From the NCBI RefSeq assembly GCF_937129525.1, contig NZ_CAKZNK010000096.1:1-64000 (forward strand): a stretch of DNA of 64,000 bases. The letters are read 5' to 3'. This stretch comes from an uncultured Chloroflexus sp. (GTDB lineage Bacteria; Chloroflexota; Chloroflexia; Chloroflexales; Chloroflexaceae). Position 1 is the first letter of the stretch, and each line of letters opens with the position of its first letter. Positions 54,357 to 63,468 of the stretch are shown one piece after another. Made by a program: the position numbers and the translations under genes. The notes beneath the pieces were generated by a model. It saw only the letters and a program-made list of their open reading frames with translations, had not been told where the DNA came from and made no database searches.

Positions 54357-55055
54357 TCATTCCGCCGATTCTTGAATTGTGGCGGAGTCATTGAATCGGT
54401 AGCCAACATACGGCTCAGTAATGATATAGCGCGGATGCGATGGGTCGGGCTCTAACTTTGTGCGCAGTCGCCGAATCACGCCTTTGACATAATCGGTTGA
54501 GTCAAGGTATTGCGGCCCCCAGACACGTTGCACGATCTGGCGCGCAGTGACAACGCCATCACGATGTGCCACCAGTTCGGCCAGTACCGCATACTCGATT
54601 GGGGTCAGATTGACCAGCTTTCCTTCGCGCAGCACCACCCGGCGGTTGGTGTCAATGACCAGATCGGCGCAATAGATGCGCGCCTGTGTGGTCTGGCCCC
54701 GGCGCAGCACCGCCCGGATACGCGCCAGTAATTCGCTCAGCCGGAATGGTTTCACCAGGTAGTCATCGGCACCATTGTCAAGCGCGGTCACAATGTCGGC
54801 TTCGGCCCCTTTGACGCTGACTACGATGATTGGGGTGGCGCTATGCTGTCGAATTTGCTGGCAGACGGCGATGCCGTTCAGAGCCGGCATCACCAGATCG
54901 AGTAAAATCAGGTCAGGCGCATACTGCTGGAACAGGTGCAATGCAGCCTCGCCATCACTGGCGATGGCAACGTCATATCCCTGCGCGCGCAAAGCTGGCG
55001 AGATCGCGGCGACAATGCCCGGATCATCATCCACAACCAGAATACGCTGGCTCAT
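54357..55055 (-). CDS. OmpR/PhoB-family response regulator
   Basis: 232 residues from the ATG at 55055 (GGAGG upstream). Receiver domain: VVDDDP acidic pair, phosphorylated aspartate in LILLDLVMPALNG, conserved lysine in YLVKPFRLSELLARI. The winged helix (about 135-228) is of the KdpE/OmpR type (LTPIEYAVLAELVAHRDGVV, STDYVKGVIRRLRTKLEPDP). Its start overlaps the stop of the upstream kinase gene in an ATGA arrangement, so the pair is co-translated. Likely target: the 11-bp direct repeat at 57579-57599. Confidence 0.93.
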   Translation of the reverse strand: MSQRILVVDDDPGIVAAISPALRAQGYDVAIASDGEAALHLFQQYAPDLILLDLVMPALNGIAVCQQIRQHSATPIIVVSVKGAEADIVTALDNGADDYLVKPFRLSELLARIRAVLRRGQTTQARIYCADLVIDTNRRVVLREGKLVNLTPIEYAVLAELVAHRDGVVTARQIVQRVWGPQYLDSTDYVKGVIRRLRTKLEPDPSHPRYIITEPYVGYRFNDSATIQESAE

Positions 55056-57485
55056 ACGAACGCTTCCTCCGGTAACCACCCACCTGTTCGCTCGTGGGTA
55101 AGTGGTATCGCAATTCGGAATATGCTTCCGCCTCCCGGTCGTTCATCAACCCAGATTGTGCCATTATGAGCAGTGATGATGCCATGACAAATCGCCAACC
55201 CCAGTCCGCTGCCGCGCTGACGACCGTGGCGGTCGCGTTCGAGCCGGTAGAAACGGTCGAAGATCCGGCGCCGTTCCGCCAATGGAATCCCCGGCCCGCG
55301 ATCGCTGATGCTCATGACCAGGTGGCTGTTGGTGCAGAAGGCTTCAATCGTGATCGGCCCGTCAGGCGGTCCGTACTTTTGGCCGTTTTCCAGCACATTC
55401 CACAATACCTGGCCGATCAGCATTGGATCGAGATATAACAGCGGCAGCGTCGGCGAGACCAGCGTTTCAATCCGGCAGTCTGGCCAGTGCTGGCGGAAAT
55501 TGCTCACCACATCCTCGATCAGGGTTTTCAGCTCAATCCATTCGCGGTCGATGGGCAGTGATCCCGCCTCGATGCGCGAGAGATCGAGTAATTGATCGAC
55601 GAAGCGGCTCAGGCGCGCTGTTTCGCGCGCAATGTTGCTGAGCAGGGCGCGATGTTCGCTGGCCGAGACGGCATGCTGGCGTTCCAGGAGGTCTTCGACT
55701 GAGGCTCGAATTGCGGTTAGCGGCGAGCGCAGATCGTGCGAGACGCTGGCGAGAAACGCGCTTTTCAGATGATTGGCTTGCCGCAAAGCTTCATTCTCAT
55801 TCGCCACCCGACGCAGTCGCGCATTGCTCAGCGTCAGACCCAGTTGTTGCGCAATCGTGAGCAAGAGGGTCAAATCTTCCCCGCTGATGTGACGGTGAGC
55901 GCGACTGCCAATTAAGAGCGCGCCGGCGTTGGTAGCGTGCAGCGCTAGCGGTAACATGACCAGATCGCAAAAACCGGCCAGCGCGCGCGGCAATGTCTCG
56001 GTGGTTGTGGCGTGTTGACGGCAAAGCCAGACCGGTTGGCCGGTGGCAATGACCATTTCGACCATTGCCGTCACTTGCGCCGGTTCGATGGCCAGTGCCG
56101 GCACACTGATAACGGTATCCTGTGGTTCGTCTTTCAGCATGATGAGACCAGCGTCGAGGTGGGTGAGGGCAAGAATGCGTTGCAACACCATATCGAGTTG
56201 TCGCGCCGGATCGAGCAATCCACCCAGGAAGAGCGCCAGGGTGTTGAGCACCTCGGTCTGAGCGGCGTAGGCCTGCAAATCGGTGTACATGCGGGCATGC
56301 CGCAACATTGCCGCGCTGTGGGCCGCCAGGGTTGCGCCACACTGCTGGTCGATTGATGTCCAGGGAGTTTCCGGGAGGCGAACCATCAGAATGACGCTGC
56401 CGATGTCGGTCAGAGGAAACCCTACCAGGGTTGTCTGATGAAATGATGTAGTGATGAACGGACTCTGGCACGATCGCCAGGCTAAGATGGCCGGTTCGGT
56501 GATAGCCGCGCGCAAGATGCTCAGCGCCCGTTGACCGTTAGCGTCTGCTACTGCCCAGAAGTGGGTATATGGGCGCTCAACCGGCGTTCCTTCAACCAGC
56601 GCGACGGCGGTGGCGTCGAGCAAATGACCCATGTGTTCTACAATTACCTGCGGCGCGTGATCTGGATCGAAGATATTGCTGATCGCGCGCGTGGCGGCGG
56701 TGAGGCGCGTGAACCGATCCGGTCGCGGCGCCGGTTGTGGCGGCGCCGCTTCAACCGGGAATGGCGGTGTCCATCCGTTGAAGATACGGGGCCGAACGGG
56801 TTGTTTGACCCATTCCAGCCGGTAGCGCCGTTGCACTTCGGCGGCAGCCGCAGCCAGCACACCGGCCAGAAACGGACGCGCCAGCCGGTAGTCGCCGGTG
56901 ATGTCCAGCACGCCGATCAAACGTCCATCAGCGGGATGAATTACCGGCGCAGCCGTGCAGGTAACATCTTGCCAGCCATTGCAATAGTGCTCGGCGCCGA
57001 CCAGTTGCACGACCTGCCTGGTTGTCAATGCCACGCCAATCGCAAATCGCATTGGTGCCGGCAACCGCTTCGCTCCAGTTGCTGCCCGGCAGCAATCCTT
57101 TGCGCGCCAGACGGCGGCGACAGGTCAGGTCGCCATCAACGTCAAGCAGCGTTCCTTCCGCATCACTGACTGCAATCACATATCCGACACTGCCCAGCGT
57201 GGCGCGCAAGCGTAACAACACCGGATGCGCCGCGCGCAGGAAGGGCGCATTCAGCTCGCGCAATTCGCGTAATTGATGGTCATCAGGCGCCGCAAATTGG
57301 GCCAGATTCAAATCGGCATTGACGGCCAGCTCACGGCAACGTCGCCACGATTCACGAATGATCGATCGTACCGGCGAGAGATCGACCGCATTGCAACTGA
57401 GAAATGCTTCCCGCAAAGCGGCGACCTGCCAGACCAGCGTATCCAGATCAGTCGTGGTCATCGCGCGTTGCACCGTCTCGCTCAT
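55052..57485 (-). pseudogene. Histidine kinase with AcoR-type and further GAF domains, split by a 7-bp duplication
   Basis: Two overlapping frames: 57485 down to about 57050 encodes the N-terminus (SPVRSIIRESWRRCRELAVN..., LLPGSNWSEAVAGTNA) and 57064/57052 down to 55052 the rest (IGVALTTRQVVQLVGAEHY...). The break is an exact tandem duplication of AATCGCA (57038-57051 on the plus strand). With one copy removed the join reads GTNAIGVALTTRQVV, the conserved AcoR-GAF sequence, and the gene becomes 809 codons (808 residues). Domains: AcoR-like GAF (about 60-190), two more GAF-type domains, HisKA (SVSHDLRSPLTAIRAS, phospho-His), HATPase (NVLENGQKYG, SDRGPGIP). No membrane span. The 670-residue downstream part could be made separately and keep kinase function. 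Confidence 0.85.
57038..57051. repeat. Exact 7-bp tandem duplication AATCGCA causing the kinase frameshift
   Basis: AATCGCA AATCGCA, adjacent. The second copy shifts the minus-strand reading frame inside the AcoR-type GAF domain. Slippage at such a repeat could revert it. Confidence 0.9.
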
Positions 57486-57578: not shown

Positions 57579-57626
57579 TTTTTCACCGGTTTTTCACCGC
57601 TCGATCGGGTGAGTTTCTGCTACGAT
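57579..57626 (+). promoter_or_regulatory. Direct repeats and promoter upstream of the amidohydrolase operon
   Basis: TTTTTCACCG occurs at 57579-57588 and again at 57590-57599, an 11-base period, one helical turn. TGCTACGAT (57618-57626) is the likely -10, so the second repeat overlaps the -35 position. OmpR-type regulators bind tandem repeats of this spacing, and one is encoded by the divergent operon. Confidence 0.6.
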
Positions 57627-57699: not shown

Positions 57700-58746
57700 A
57701 TGTACCGCACCGCTGATGGCCGCGAGATTTTCGTGATCGATGCTCACACCCATCTGTGGGACGCCAGTCCGGAGAATCAGCGCGGCAAGTTGGGCAAAGG
57801 CTGGATCGATTGCTTCTATGCCTACCACAAGAACCTCTCGCCGGCAGATAAGGTTTGGACACTCGAACACTACCAGCGCTACTCGGTTGAAGACATGGCG
57901 CGCGATCTCTTCGTCGAGGGCTACGTCGATATGTGCATTCTGCAATCGACCAACCTCTTCGACTTCTACCACACCGGTTTTAATCCCATCGAGCGCAATG
58001 CGCAGTTGAAGGAGGCGTTCCCCGAGCGAGTTATTCTCAATGGCTCGTTCGATCCCCGGCACGGCGAAGATGGCCCGCTCGGCCTGAATGCCTTGCGCCG
58101 GGCAAAGGAACAATACGACATCAAAGGCGTCAAGCTCTACACTGCCGAGTGGCACAATGGCTCGCGCGGTTGGCGGTTGAACGATCCAGCGGCTTACCCC
58201 TTCTTTGAGGAGTGCGAACGACTCGGTATCACTAACATCCACATTCACAAGGGACCGACCATCTGGCCGCTTGACCGCGACTCGTTCGATGTGGCCGATG
58301 TTGACTACGTTGCCACCGATTTTCCCGGCCTCACCTTTATCGTCGAGCACTGCGGTCTGCCACGCCTGGAAGACTTTTGCTGGATTGCCACGCAAGAGAC
58401 CAATGTTTGGGGTGGCCTGGCGGTTGCGATGCCCTTCATTCACTCACGTCCGCGCTATTTCGCCGAGATCATGGCCAATCTGCTCTACTGGCTTGGCCCT
58501 GACAAGCTGACCTTCGCCAGCGATTATGCTCTCTGGACGCCGGGCTGGCTGATCGAGAAGTTTATGGCCTTTGAACTGCCCGAAGATTTAGAGCAGGAAT
58601 TCGGGGTGAAATTAACCCTGGAAAACAAGGAGAAGATTCTCGGTCTAAACGCTGCCCGTCTCTACGGGATTGACGTTGAGGCGAAGAAAGAACAGTTACG
58701 GGCAATGCCGGTCGTGCTCGACGGCGCTGCGCCCGCTACCGCCTGA
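57700..58746 (+). CDS. Amidohydrolase-family metal-dependent hydrolase
   Basis: 348 residues. TIM-barrel metal ligands of the amidohydrolase-2 (COG2159-like) type: IDAHTHLWD (HxH), GVKLYTAEWH, TNIHIHKGP, IVEHCGLPR and the final aspartate in TFASDYALWTPG. GGAG precedes the ATG. It is the first gene of a three-gene operon with a DUF59 protein and a Zn-alcohol dehydrogenase. In propane-type soluble di-iron monooxygenase clusters (for example prm/mim in actinobacteria) a homologue of this family is required for the oxygenase; its reaction there is not established. No oxygenase is in this window. Confidence 0.85.
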   Translation: MYRTADGREIFVIDAHTHLWDASPENQRGKLGKGWIDCFYAYHKNLSPADKVWTLEHYQRYSVEDMARDLFVEGYVDMCILQSTNLFDFYHTGFNPIERNAQLKEAFPERVILNGSFDPRHGEDGPLGLNALRRAKEQYDIKGVKLYTAEWHNGSRGWRLNDPAAYPFFEECERLGITNIHIHKGPTIWPLDRDSFDVADVDYVATDFPGLTFIVEHCGLPRLEDFCWIATQETNVWGGLAVAMPFIHSRPRYFAEIMANLLYWLGPDKLTFASDYALWTPGWLIEKFMAFELPEDLEQEFGVKLTLENKEKILGLNAARLYGIDVEAKKEQLRAMPVVLDGAAPATA

Positions 58747-58757
58747 GAGGTGTTGCC

Positions 58758-59543
58758 GTGCCTGAGCTTGCCGACATTCAGCGCGCGTTAGCCGAAGTCT
58801 ACGATCCGGAACTCGATACACCGATCACCGAGCTGGGATTTGTTAATGAGGTGCAGATCAGCGGTGATCACGTCACCGTAACCTACACCGTTCCTACCTT
58901 TTGGTGCGCGCCCAACTTCGTTTTTATGATGTCGCAAGACATTCGCGCCGAGGTGAGTCGAGTGCCAGGAGTGGCTGGGGTTACCGTCGTCGTGCGTAAC
59001 AACTGTCTGGAAGACGAGATCAACGCCGGGGTAAATGCCGGTCGCAGTTTTGCCGAAACCTTTCCCGCCGATGTGGGGACGAAGGCCGATCTGGAAGCGC
59101 TACGCCATACCTTCACTGTGAAAGGGTTTCTTGCCCGGCAGGATGCGCTGCTGCGCCGGATGCGACAGGCCGGTTTGCGCGATGCAACCATTCTCGATTT
59201 GCGCGTCGGTGATGTTGTCGCGCAAGGCGAAGATCTCTTCGTCGCGACTGCTGCGGATTGTCCTCCGCAACGGATTGCGCTGGCTGCGGCTGATCTGGCA
59301 CGTTACCTGCACAAGCGGCGTCGGCTTGGTCTGCCGGTAGCGGCAAACGATTGGCTATTCACCACGGTTGACGGCCAGCCGATTGCTGAAGCCGAGCTGG
59401 CCACCTATCTGCGCTACTCACGCGCTGCCCGGCTTAATATCGCTTTCAACACCAGCCTCTGTGAAGGTCTCCTCCGCACCCAGTTCTTTCCCGAACGGCA
59501 ATACGACTATTCCAGTGTTGGTGACCGCCTGATCTTGCAATGA
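58758..59543 (+). CDS. DUF59/MIP18-domain protein (iron-sulfur or di-iron assembly type)
   Basis: 261 residues. The N-terminal 95 residues are a DUF59 domain (IQRALAEVYDPELDTPITEL then GFVNEVQISGDHVTVTYTVP, with the single reactive cysteine in TFWCAPNF). The remaining 165 residues are an extension rich in Ala, Arg and Leu, as in the SDIMO-associated DUF59 proteins. It starts 11 bases after the amidohydrolase stop. Likely role: metal centre or Fe-S assembly for an oxygenase or the alcohol dehydrogenase partner; inference from neighbourhood. Confidence 0.85.
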   Translation: MPELADIQRALAEVYDPELDTPITELGFVNEVQISGDHVTVTYTVPTFWCAPNFVFMMSQDIRAEVSRVPGVAGVTVVVRNNCLEDEINAGVNAGRSFAETFPADVGTKADLEALRHTFTVKGFLARQDALLRRMRQAGLRDATILDLRVGDVVAQGEDLFVATAADCPPQRIALAAADLARYLHKRRRLGLPVAANDWLFTTVDGQPIAEAELATYLRYSRAARLNIAFNTSLCEGLLRTQFFPERQYDYSSVGDRLILQ

Positions 59544-59555
59544 GGAGCCACGCTT

Positions 59556-60599
59556 ATGCGAGCTGCCCGTTTACACGAGTACGATGAGCATCTGAACGTC
59601 CAGCTTCAACTTGAGGATGTCCCGTTGCCCAAAATCACCAAACCCGGTGAAGTAATTGTCCGGATTGGCGCTGCCGGTCTGTGCCGCACCGATCTGCACA
59701 TCATTGAAGGGGTGTGGAAAGACATTCAAGACCCACAGCGCACCTTGCTCCCCTACATTCTCGGCCACGAAAATGCCGGGTGGGTTGAGGAAGTCGGTCC
59801 TGGCGTGACAACGGTCAAGGTCGGCGATCCCGTGATCTGTCATCCTCTGCGTTCGTGCGGCGTTTGTCTGGGCTGCCGGCGCGGGGAAGACATGTACTGC
59901 GAGCATGGCAGTTTTCCCGGTCTCAACTGCGATGGCGGTTTCGCCGAATACATGCTGACTAACGAGCGCGCGCTCATCAAGCTCAATCCGAATGTCGCGC
60001 CGGTTGATGTCGCGCCGCTTGCCGATGCCGGAATCACCGCTTACCGGGTGGCCAAAAAGGCGGCGCGAAAACTCAATCCCGGCCAATATTGCGTCATTCT
60101 CGGCGTAGGTGGTCTGGGTCACATTGCGCTCCAATCGGTGCGCGAGCTTTGCGGCGCGCGGATCATAGCCGTTGATCGATCGGAAGCGGCGCGCAACCTG
60201 GCCCGCGATCTGGGCGCGCATCACGTGCTCGATGGCGGTGACTCAATTGTGCAAGAGGTTAAAGAACTCACTCATGGCGGCGCGCATGTCGTGATCGATT
60301 TCGTTGGTGAGCTGGGCGCCGAGCAGGTTTCCTGGCAAATGCTGCGTCAGGGTGGCACACACTACGTTGTCGGCTATGGCGGCGCGGTCAATGTGCCAAC
60401 GGTTCATATGATCATCACCGAAATCGCCATCGAGGGTAGCCTGGTCGGCAACTATGTAGAACTGGTCGAATTGATGGAACTGAATGCCGAAGGCCGCGTG
60501 AAGCTGCATGGACAGCAATACCGGCTAGACCAGATCAATCAGGCTATCGACGATTTCAAAAACCGGCGCATTGCCGGTCGCGCGGTAATCGTGCCCTGA
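59556..60599 (+). CDS. Zinc-dependent alcohol dehydrogenase (medium-chain, NAD type)
   Basis: 347 residues. Catalytic zinc ligands: C in GLCRTDLHIIEG and H/E in LGHENAGWVEE. Structural zinc: SCGVCLGCRRGEDMYC (four cysteines). The dinucleotide fold is VILGVGGLGHIALQSV, with aspartate at the strand-2 end (IIAVDRS), so NAD preference is expected. It follows the DUF59 gene by 12 bases with GAGGAG. In propane-monooxygenase clusters the equivalent gene oxidises the secondary alcohol. The substrate here is unknown. A terminator follows at 60614. Confidence 0.92.
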   Translation: MRAARLHEYDEHLNVQLQLEDVPLPKITKPGEVIVRIGAAGLCRTDLHIIEGVWKDIQDPQRTLLPYILGHENAGWVEEVGPGVTTVKVGDPVICHPLRSCGVCLGCRRGEDMYCEHGSFPGLNCDGGFAEYMLTNERALIKLNPNVAPVDVAPLADAGITAYRVAKKAARKLNPGQYCVILGVGGLGHIALQSVRELCGARIIAVDRSEAARNLARDLGAHHVLDGGDSIVQEVKELTHGGAHVVIDFVGELGAEQVSWQMLRQGGTHYVVGYGGAVNVPTVHMIITEIAIEGSLVGNYVELVELMELNAEGRVKLHGQQYRLDQINQAIDDFKNRRIAGRAVIVP

Positions 60600-60613: not shown

Positions 60614-60650
60614 GGGGGTAGGTTCGCGCAACCTGCCCCCAGATTGTTTC
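60614..60650 (+). terminator. Terminator of the amidohydrolase-DUF59-adh operon
   Basis: GGGGGTAGGTT (60614-60624) pairs with AACCTGCCCCC (60630-60640, one G-U), 5-base loop, followed by AGATTGTTTC. Confidence 0.7.
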
Positions 60651-61587: not shown

Positions 61588-63468
61588 TTACCTGGCCCAC
61601 TCACCGATCGGCGGGCCGGCTTCGAAAAAGATTGTTGGCAAGAGATCGAGTTGTCGGCTGAGCCATGGCAAAGCGGCAGACAGAAGCTGTCGGCGCAGGC
61701 GAGCCGGCAGCAACAAGCCGAGCAATGCTCCGGCGCGAGCCAGTCGGTGTTGCTGGCGGCGAGCCAGTCTAATCAGGCGCGCCGCCAGTCGCGCTTTAGT
61801 CAGGGTCAGGCGTGGCGCTTGCTCCCAACGGTCGAGAAAGCGCGATAGCTCGGCGAGTTCCAGTGGCGGAAAATCGGCACGTTCACCCCATTGGCGCTGA
61901 TGATACTCGATTGCCAGTCTCAGCGCGCGCGTTTCGGCTTCCAGATCGCGCGGTTGCCCATCACGGGCCATAGCGGCCAGCGGCAGCAGCAGGGCGCGCG
62001 TTGCCTGCGATAGAGTCAGCGCATCGTGTAAATAACGCAGACTGGTAACGATCTGGGATACTTCGACATCGAAAGAGGGCGCTTTCAGCGCCACCAGGTC
62101 GGCCAGCTCACCGGCCACTTGCGCCGCATAACCGGCGCGTTCAATCACCAGCGCCGGGTCAGGCAACACCTCGGACAGATAGACCCACACCGGGAGCGCA
62201 ACGGTCGGGCGCATCCACCAGATCCATAGCAACGAAGGCATCACGATGCCGCCAAACCGTTCTATCCCCGGCGATTGCCCAAAATACCAGCCCTGCTCGA
62301 TCAATGACTCTGATTTGAGGTAAGCCGTTGCCACAGCATCGGCAAAAGCGGCGCCATAGACGGCTAACCGATGGGCAAACCACTCGCGCGCAAACGCCGC
62401 TGCATCGATAGCAGGTTGTTGGGCCAGCGCTGCCGTGATCGCGCTACTGGCTTCCGTCCAGAGATTCCAGCCGTTTGGACCAAGCGAAGCCGCGCCGCCA
62501 CCCCACCCGCCGGTGCCATTCCATGCCCAGATCCCGACGCAGCGCGGTTCGGCGGCAGCCCGCCGGATTGCGGCGCTATGCAGCTCTACCACACCGGAGG
62601 GAACCAGGCCAAACAGCTCGTATTCGCGTCGGTTTTGCAACTCGACGATCTGGCGCGGGCCGGGCAGACCAAGCGTGGGATTGACGGGCAACAGGCGGAA
62701 AAAGTCGGCAGGAGTGTGCTTGAGTGAAACCAGCAGATGTGGGTCACGCTGATCGGCAAAGACAGCCCGATAGCGATCTGGCGATGAGAGTAGATCGCCA
62801 GCTTCGCCAATTCCGAGCGTCCACGTCCGCATAATCAGGTGTCGATCAAAGCGATTGCATACCGGCAAGAGTGTTGCGATCAGGCGCCTGATTGCCGCCA
62901 CGTCGTGATAGATCAGATGACCGGTATAACCGGCGCAATCGTGTGCGCCACCTGTCTCGCCGATGCGAATGATCACACCACTCACCATCGGCAGCGCGGT
63001 GAAAAGATCGATCAATGCGGCCTGATTGAGCTCATCCAGCCTGGGATTGCCGGCAAAGAGTGGCCCAACCTGCGATCGCAACTCCGGCGTCATCCACTGC
63101 ATATCACTGGTCACGTAGACCTGCATCCCCCGCGCTGCTGCCTCGGTCAGCAATGGCGCAAGCGCTGCGCGGTAAGCCAGCGCGCGTAACCGGTAAGGGC
63201 TATGTGGCGTGTAGTATGGCTTGGGGGCCTGATCGAATGTGACCAGGTGCGCCAGATTGTCGATCACAATTCCGGTATAACCCTGTGCCTGCGCCGCGGC
63301 CAGATATGTGTGTGCCCGTTCCACGCCGCGTTGTATTTGCGCCTCAGCGACGTATGGCGGCACTGGAAGATCAATCTGGCTAAACGGAAACGATGACCAA
63401 TTCCGCACCGGCGCTGATGGATCGATAAAGGGGCCATTGATGTCAATCAGACGAAGCGAGAGTGTCAT
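61588..63468 (-). CDS. TIM-barrel glycosidase-like protein of unknown function
   Basis: 626 residues, not matched to a named family. The N-terminal half (about 1-400) has a barrel pattern: YTGIVIDNLAHLVTF, MQVYVTSDMQWMTPE, PMVSGVIIRIGETGG, NRFDRHLIMRTWTLGIGE and CVGIWAWNGTGGWG. The conserved IRIGETGG and NGTGGWG loops recall GH67-like (alpha-glucuronidase) barrels, with a glutamate in IGETGG. The C-terminal 200 residues are helical. No signal peptide is visible. A -10 (TATAAT, minus strand, 63514-63519) gives a leader of about 39 bases. It is convergent with the PHP gene, three bases apart. Confidence 0.65.
   Translation of the reverse strand: MTLSLRLIDINGPFIDPSAPVRNWSSFPFSQIDLPVPPYVAEAQIQRGVERAHTYLAAAQAQGYTGIVIDNLAHLVTFDQAPKPYYTPHSPYRLRALAYRAALAPLLTEAAARGMQVYVTSDMQWMTPELRSQVGPLFAGNPRLDELNQAALIDLFTALPMVSGVIIRIGETGGAHDCAGYTGHLIYHDVAAIRRLIATLLPVCNRFDRHLIMRTWTLGIGEAGDLLSSPDRYRAVFADQRDPHLLVSLKHTPADFFRLLPVNPTLGLPGPRQIVELQNRREYELFGLVPSGVVELHSAAIRRAAAEPRCVGIWAWNGTGGWGGGAASLGPNGWNLWTEASSAITAALAQQPAIDAAAFAREWFAHRLAVYGAAFADAVATAYLKSESLIEQGWYFGQSPGIERFGGIVMPSLLWIWWMRPTVALPVWVYLSEVLPDPALVIERAGYAAQVAGELADLVALKAPSFDVEVSQIVTSLRYLHDALTLSQATRALLLPLAAMARDGQPRDLEAETRALRLAIEYHQRQWGERADFPPLELAELSRFLDRWEQAPRLTLTKARLAARLIRLARRQQHRLARAGALLGLLLPARLRRQLLSAALPWLSRQLDLLPTIFFEAGPPIGEWAR

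Follow-up and report, generated by a model that had tools for sequence, protein, structure and literature searches.

Genes and features of the locus

Three intact, co-directional ORFs lie on the + strand of the 64 000 nt stretch of Chloroflexus DNA analysed here (the window), separated by gaps of 11 and 12 bp. The first (57700..58746) encodes a 348 aa enzyme of the Amidohydro_2 family (AMH; Pfam, 1e-44), the second (58758..59543) a 261 aa protein in which a Pfam DUF59 domain is followed by a C-terminal extension (DUF59x), and the third (59556..60599) a zinc-dependent MDR alcohol dehydrogenase (ADH; ADH_N 4e-29, ADH_zinc_N 9e-24). The ORFs and Pfam matches agree with the sequence-only reading of the region as a trio of amidohydrolase, DUF59 protein with a long C-terminal extension and Zn-ADH. 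A terminator-like hairpin with an 11-bp stem, detected by consensus scan only, lies directly 3′ of ADH (60614..60640, + strand).

AMH retains the complete metal/catalytic set of its family: the HxH motif (H16, H18), two further histidines (H183, H217) and an aspartate (D275). H16 and D275 are present in all aligned rows and H183 and H217 in 45/45; H18 is absent in two rows. The nearest AMH matches in the PDB by sequence are weak, and the AlphaFold model of AMH is poor. ADH has the full catalytic and structural Zn ligands of a zinc-dependent MDR enzyme and keeps the NAD-selecting Asp207; its nearest solved structure is the Aeropyrum ADH (1h2b, E 9e-102).

Upstream of the trio, in divergent orientation, are the genes of a two-component system (TCS), all on the − strand. 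An OmpR/PhoB-type response regulator (54357..55079; Response_reg 2e-32, Trans_reg_C 2e-19) is accompanied by the main fragment of a histidine kinase (55052..57064; GAF, HisKA and HATPase_c by Pfam) and, in another frame, by an N-terminal AcoR/DhaR-type sensor fragment (56928..57485; NCBIfam DhaR 8e-8). Other Chloroflexus species and the relative G048 have intact kinases, to which the main fragment is 62–72 % identical. In relatives, kinase and sensor form one intact ORF of 813–906 aa; in the present genome a 7-bp tandem duplication within the kinase gene (57038..57051, − strand; AATCGCA twice on the + strand) interrupts the frame; it was seen in comparison with loci L031 and L034 and is absent from those relatives. 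The divergent TCS and its AcoR/DhaR-like N-terminus, both proposed from the sequence alone, are thus present, with the correction that the kinase ORF is broken here. Since it is broken, regulation in this genome may be impaired.

The response regulator gene adjoins the trio in Chloroflexus species and in G048, G019 and G034. At high similarity, the kinase sensor is found among 61 relatives in trio-bearing genomes only and is missing from the trio-less genome G004; among relatives, the TCS is confined to trio loci. The weaker sensor matches of G048 and G054 belong to other genes. The sensor had also been read as a link to the mim activator. This does not hold as a specific pointer to mim-type sensing: the domain is widespread among AcoR-type regulators, with matches in 505 plasmid records, and at the trio it sits on a histidine kinase rather than on the sigma-54 activator that carries it in prm/mim clusters.

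A probable tandem operator between the two-component system and the trio

Alignment of the intergenic region from eight genomes revealed one outstanding block, two TTTTTCACC direct repeats that precede the AMH start by about 100 bp. In the window this is TTTTTCACC-GG-TTTTTCACC (57579..57598, + strand), with an 11-bp period. The arrangement TTTTTCACC-N2-TTTTTCACC is nearly invariant across Chloroflexus; the window contains one such site, with zero expected from 100 shuffles. Downstream of the operator a conserved GYTACRAT block includes TACGAT, a candidate −10 element (57621..57626, + strand).

When 1.49 Mb of loci were scanned, the operator was present at every TCS-trio locus whose intergenic region was covered, with three mismatches in G019; a one-mismatch copy also separates the TCS from an SDIMO (soluble di-iron monooxygenase) operon in G289. 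The tandem operator is tied to the TCS. The sole further matches in the scan, L032 9064 and L143 608, are both at the three-mismatch limit. Direct repeats one helical turn apart suit an OmpR-family regulator. Given this fit of the 11-bp spacing, TTTTTCACC-N2-TTTTTCACC is probably the operator of the TCS response regulator.

DUF59x and its extension

Residues 5–77 of DUF59x match FeS_assembly_P (DUF59; 1e-14), and for the extension of about 180 residues (78–261) no Pfam family was found above cut-off. Cys50 (58905–58907) and Cys235 (59460–59462) are invariant in 46/46 homologues, the former being the conserved cysteine expected of a DUF59/MIP18 domain. DUF59x shares this feature with the Fe-S targeting proteins PaaD, SufT and CIAO2 but differs from them in its recombinase-fold extension, which they lack as far as matches go. 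No Fe-S client that would account for a DUF59 protein is encoded in the trio operon. Against the PDB by sequence, DUF59x gave matches above chance to DUF59 entries only.

The AlphaFold model of DUF59x, built from five input sequences, is middling (pLDDT 72), and its last 35 or so residues, including Cys235, are poor. In a structure search the N-terminal half matches DUF59/CIAO2 proteins. Within the extension of this predicted model, residues 118–227 (59109..59438, + strand) align by VIA-align with the tyrosine recombinases Cre (Z 9.8, about 103 residues, 2.8–3.0 Å), XerH (Z 8.9) and XerD (Z 8.2). Because middling Z values are common, the match was checked at the sequence level. With hhalign, an alignment of the extension against 28 integrase sequences, picked by a simple motif rule and possibly including a few wrong frames, gave a probability of 90.7 (score 45); five unrelated families gave less than 0.4 and 20 column-shuffles less than 0.3. 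Pfam Phage_integrase alone gave only 0.09. The extension is thus predicted to adopt the fold of a tyrosine-recombinase catalytic domain. The catalytic residues themselves are missing from it: the Arg I column is mostly Ser/Ala, there is no HxxR box, and a single Tyr-rich column lies upstream of the expected catalytic region. Taken together, the hhalign and structure matches and the loss of the catalytic Arg and HxxR make DUF59x most likely a fusion of a DUF59 domain with an inactive domain of recombinase fold. No description of such a fusion, or of a DUF59-amidohydrolase pair, was found in the open-access literature.

The match to tyrosine recombinases in fold and profile could also mean that DUF59x acts in nucleic-acid binding or regulation and not as a maturation factor. 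However, the catalytic residues are gone, the operon pairing with an enzyme is strict, and the N-terminal DUF59 domain is of the CIAO2/FAM96/SufT kind with its conserved Cys; a nucleic-acid-binding or regulatory role is accordingly considered very unlikely.

Relationship to SDIMO gene clusters

The trio consists of homologues of genes that lie beside SDIMO operons. Its resemblance to SDIMO accessory genes (PMC4428276, PMC9213486) was recognized in the sequence-only reading and is borne out both by homology and by the published gene order after prmABCD, namely hydrolase, metal-sulfur protein, ADH and GroEL (PMC4428276), minus the GroEL. In the prmABCD/mimABCD clusters (group V SDIMO) of Rhodococcus, Gordonia, Mycolicibacterium and Proteobacteria, AMH is about 60 % and DUF59x about 30–35 % identical to the proteins described here, the ADH is of the same family and the gene order is the same in several (PMC4428276). 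These clusters differ in having a hydroxylase, reductase, coupling protein and dedicated GroEL, none of which is found at the Chloroflexus trio, and in having a sigma-54 Fis regulator where the trio has a TCS. The smoABCD system (group VI SDIMO) of R. aetherivorans BCP1 also combines a TCS, an ADH and GroEL beside an alkane-oxidation system, but its regulator is of the LuxR type, its ADH is NDMA-dependent and no AMH or DUF59 is reported (PMC11057499).

A closer regulatory link than the sensor is provided by G289, in which a homologous histidine kinase (41 %), a response regulator and the same tandem operator precede an SDIMO-AMH operon. Unlike the Chloroflexus arrangement, this one drives an SDIMO; the contig ends inside AMH, short of the stretch where DUF59x and ADH might follow.

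The window contains no match to PF02332 (SDIMO hydroxylase alpha/beta), in keeping with the earlier observation that no oxygenase accompanies the trio. Nor was an SDIMO found with this profile in the present genome (G000; 4.48 Mb, 99.97 % complete), in any of the eight Chloroflexus genomes comprising it and seven others (0/8, even at E 10), or in G037, G015 and G048. Close matches to the present genome come from C. islandicus and other Chloroflexus. Relatives served as the positive control, with SDIMOs found in two members of the family, G034 and G019; in 14 named control genomes there was no PF02332 match over cut-off. In G034 the same TCS-trio lies about 7 kb from a group-V-like SDIMO-GroEL operon, and in G019 trio and SDIMO operon are on separate contigs. 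The alpha subunits of the two are 97 % identical to each other. GroEL, present in G034 and G019, had no match in the trio neighbourhoods of Chloroflexus. The search for SDIMO subunits linked to the trio, which the sequence-only reading had proposed, was therefore negative in this genome. A search with PF08882 (acetone carboxylase gamma) gave no match, and its control likewise gave none.

Across 400 Chloroflexota genomes, SDIMOs occur in 8 (PF02332) and DUF59x in 33 (long profile matches, counted over 180 bits). The AMH profile matches 31 genomes at E below 1e-140, each with DUF59x; of the two other genomes with DUF59x, G271 has a partial AMH frame and G269 an AMH at the edge of a contig. Thirty of the 33 DUF59x-positive genomes are without SDIMO, and in the three that have both (G034, G193 and G269) the two are nowhere directly adjacent. 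AMH, DUF59x and ADH are co-conserved in many genomes without SDIMO. SDIMOs are found in 3/33 genomes with DUF59x and in 5/367 without it (Fisher p 0.02), a modest enrichment in light of which the trio could still rely in part on oxygenases elsewhere.

These data bear on the suggestion that the trio serves an oxygenase, be it an SDIMO, a P450 or another, encoded elsewhere in the same genome. The SDIMO-GroEL operons of G034 and G019 are compatible with it, as are the homologous TCS and operator before the SDIMO-AMH operon of G289. Against it, no SDIMO was found in any of the eight Chloroflexus genomes or in G037, G015 and G048, and the operator was not found upstream of the SDIMO operons of G034 and G019. 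P450s were considered as the partner oxygenase and rejected, since they do not track the trio: they are present in G000, G003 and the trio-less G004 and absent from the trio-bearing G034. Service to a distant oxygenase is considered unlikely, and the conservation of DUF59x in 30/33 genomes without SDIMO runs counter to the oxygenase-bound role first proposed. The fallback offered with that proposal, an undescribed alcohol/ketone pathway, appears the better choice; no description of one was found.

Conservation and evolution of the trio

Related loci without an oxygenase are found in haloarchaea, Thermomicrobium, Peribacillus and Rhizobium N324. Thermomicrobium roseum and other Chloroflexota have stand-alone DUF59x-AMH-ADH loci of the same three families with no SDIMO nearby, and haloarchaea have a version with a divergent ADH, again with no SDIMO nearby; these loci differ from the Chloroflexus trio in gene order and in having an IclR regulator or no TCS. 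In the loci read, the intact trio is found in three gene orders, and besides it only an IclR or TCS regulator recurs; with regulators alone recurring, neighbours provide no substrate clue. Outside Chloroflexota the comparison was made with plasmid records, unannotated ones being read by BLASTP. DUF59x relatives with AMH lie beside SDIMO operons and GroEL on plasmid records of Ponticoccus, Bradyrhizobium, Gemmobacter, Aminobacter, Paracoccus, Caballeronia and Rhodococcus.

Comparison of Chloroflexus species gives dN/dS values of about 0.01–0.05 for AMH and ADH, where dS is often near saturation, and about 0.06–0.13 for DUF59x. In quick-search trees with no resolved root, the Chloroflexus copies of AMH and DUF59x group with those of G048, G019 and G034, and AMH also with G015 and G037. 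The Chloroflexus ADH clade is sister to SDIMO-linked ADHs of Gemmobacter and Paracoccus. SDIMO-linked rows appear in several places in the ADH tree and interleave with unlinked copies, such that several switches are needed; the two kinds stand neither wholly apart, the outcome that the sequence-only reading had named as contrary to its proposal, nor wholly together.

Strong purifying selection on the three genes shows the trio to be an actively maintained module that stands alone, and not a relic. Were it a relic, an ancestral SDIMO cluster would have lost its oxygenase and GroEL and left functionless accessory genes to linger, a history with which the grouping of the two SDIMO-bearing relatives with Chloroflexus in trees, the TCS and operator common to the trio and the G289 SDIMO operon, and the broken kinase of the present genome could be reconciled. 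The very low dN/dS of AMH and ADH (dS often saturated), the conserved operator, the intact catalytic residues and the repeated appearance of the genes apart from any SDIMO, in many lineages including archaea, leave this explanation barely credible. Ancestral loss of an oxygenase is possible in itself; loss of trio function is unlikely.

The pairing of AMH with DUF59 is seen beyond the trio, in a paralogous two-gene operon of the present genome (G000:C51) and, at adjacent coordinates, in G380 and G208. This recurrence even in distant paralogues argues that the pair is the core of the module. ADH is absent beside AMH-DUF59x in Rhizobium N324, where lactoylglutathione lyase (gloA) follows the pair, and in Peribacillus, where DJ-1/PfpI does; the alcohol step may therefore not be core. 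Accordingly, AMH-DUF59x could be the true unit, acting on a reactive 2-oxoaldehyde or hydroxyketone such as methylglyoxal or acetol, with ADH one of several interchangeable partners. The constant pairing, the gloA and DJ-1/PfpI replacements, the relationship of the kinase sensor to DhaR/AcoR and the acetone oxidation route of mim-bearing actinobacteria, proposed to run through acetol to methylglyoxal (PMC7176365), would all suit such chemistry, but the Rhizobium N324 and Peribacillus loci are long-branch members. It is regarded as a possible, if doubtful, reading.

Proposed function and implications

The explanation preferred here is a stand-alone operon whose genes are homologues of those accessory to propane/acetone-type SDIMO clusters and which works without an oxygenase in an alcohol/ketone pathway; belief and doubt in this full account are about evenly balanced. 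That the trio, being widespread and strongly conserved by itself, forms an independent alcohol-processing pathway is probable. On a signal sensed by the AcoR-type GAF of the kinase, the response regulator would occupy TTTTTCACC-N2-TTTTTCACC and turn on the operon. ADH would then oxidize a small alcohol with NAD+, perhaps a secondary or alpha-hydroxy C3–C4 alcohol such as 2-propanol or acetol. The C3 guess follows from SDIMO pathways and from the abundance of AMH and Adh1 proteins in Actinomycetospora grown on acetone/2-HIBA (PMC7176365). AMH, presumably a mononuclear-metal enzyme of the hydrolase/decarboxylase type, may process the resulting carbonyl compound or something derived from it. DUF59x would be the dedicated partner of AMH: its most likely task is to supply the AMH metal or keep it bound by means of Cys50/Cys235, and the inactive recombinase-fold domain would bind the client. 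The AMH-DUF59x-ADH unit would be common to SDIMO clusters and the trio since the same alcohol/ketone chemistry would be a stage of both.

More broadly, AMH-DUF59x may be an ancient pair of bacteria and archaea in which a fusion of DUF59 to a dead recombinase matures or partners an uncharacterized metalloenzyme. With ADH it would make up an oxygenase-independent alcohol/ketone pathway later recruited by SDIMO clusters, not one invented for the oxygenase. This wider proposal is tentative, and somewhat more doubted than believed.

The recombinase-like domain alters the view of the ‘iron-sulfur assembly protein’ in propane monooxygenase clusters. Maps of prm clusters in the open-access literature draw the hydrolase and the metal-sulfur protein without an assigned role. 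Oxygenase-free genomes, including that of the cultured phototroph Chloroflexus, permit the roles of both proteins to be tested without an oxygenase interfering.

DUF59x, the DUF59 protein of the amidohydrolase (AMH)–DUF59x–alcohol dehydrogenase (ADH) trio, is a homologue of the 'Fe-S assembly' protein of propane/acetone-type (prm/mim) monooxygenase clusters. In its C-terminal extension, residues 118–227 (window 59109–59438) correspond to a degenerate tyrosine-recombinase fold, and an invariant Cys lies near the end of the extension.

AMH and DUF59x also occur together in loci from which the ADH is absent. In Peribacillus (locus L075, 6360–11342) the pair is followed by DJ-1/PfpI, and in Rhizobium N324 (L077, 8909–12198) by gloA and a CtBP-like dehydrogenase. 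A paralogous two-gene unit, comprising a second DUF59 protein (143 aa) and an Amidohydro_2 protein (334 aa), is located on contig C51 of the genome under study (L082, 9897–11329). Metal ligands of this Amidohydro_2 protein are changed, with VCH replacing HxH and GGE replacing SD; pairings of this kind are also found in genomes G380 and G208.

Upstream of the trio, the histidine kinase gene is interrupted by a 7 bp tandem duplication (AATCGCA twice, window 57038–57051) seen in this genome only, which is either a genuine recent mutation or an assembly error. The operator, a probable response-regulator site, is present in two copies in C. islandicus (L031, 8086–8105 and 8819–8838) and a related MAG (L033, 956–975 and 1689–1708), spaced by exactly 733 bp in both, a pattern that would fit a duplication of the intergenic region. 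A 626 aa ORF that lies beyond the trio on its downstream side and runs in the opposite direction (window 61588–63468) has no match in Pfam.

Group-V-like operons encoding a soluble di-iron monooxygenase and GroEL are present in two Chloroflexaceae genomes, G034 (L055, 8430–14559) and G019 (L135, 6205–12555). Their alpha subunits are ~77 % identical to that of Caballeronia and 97 % identical to each other, far more than the reductases (84 %), beta subunits (88 %) or GroEL proteins (89 %).
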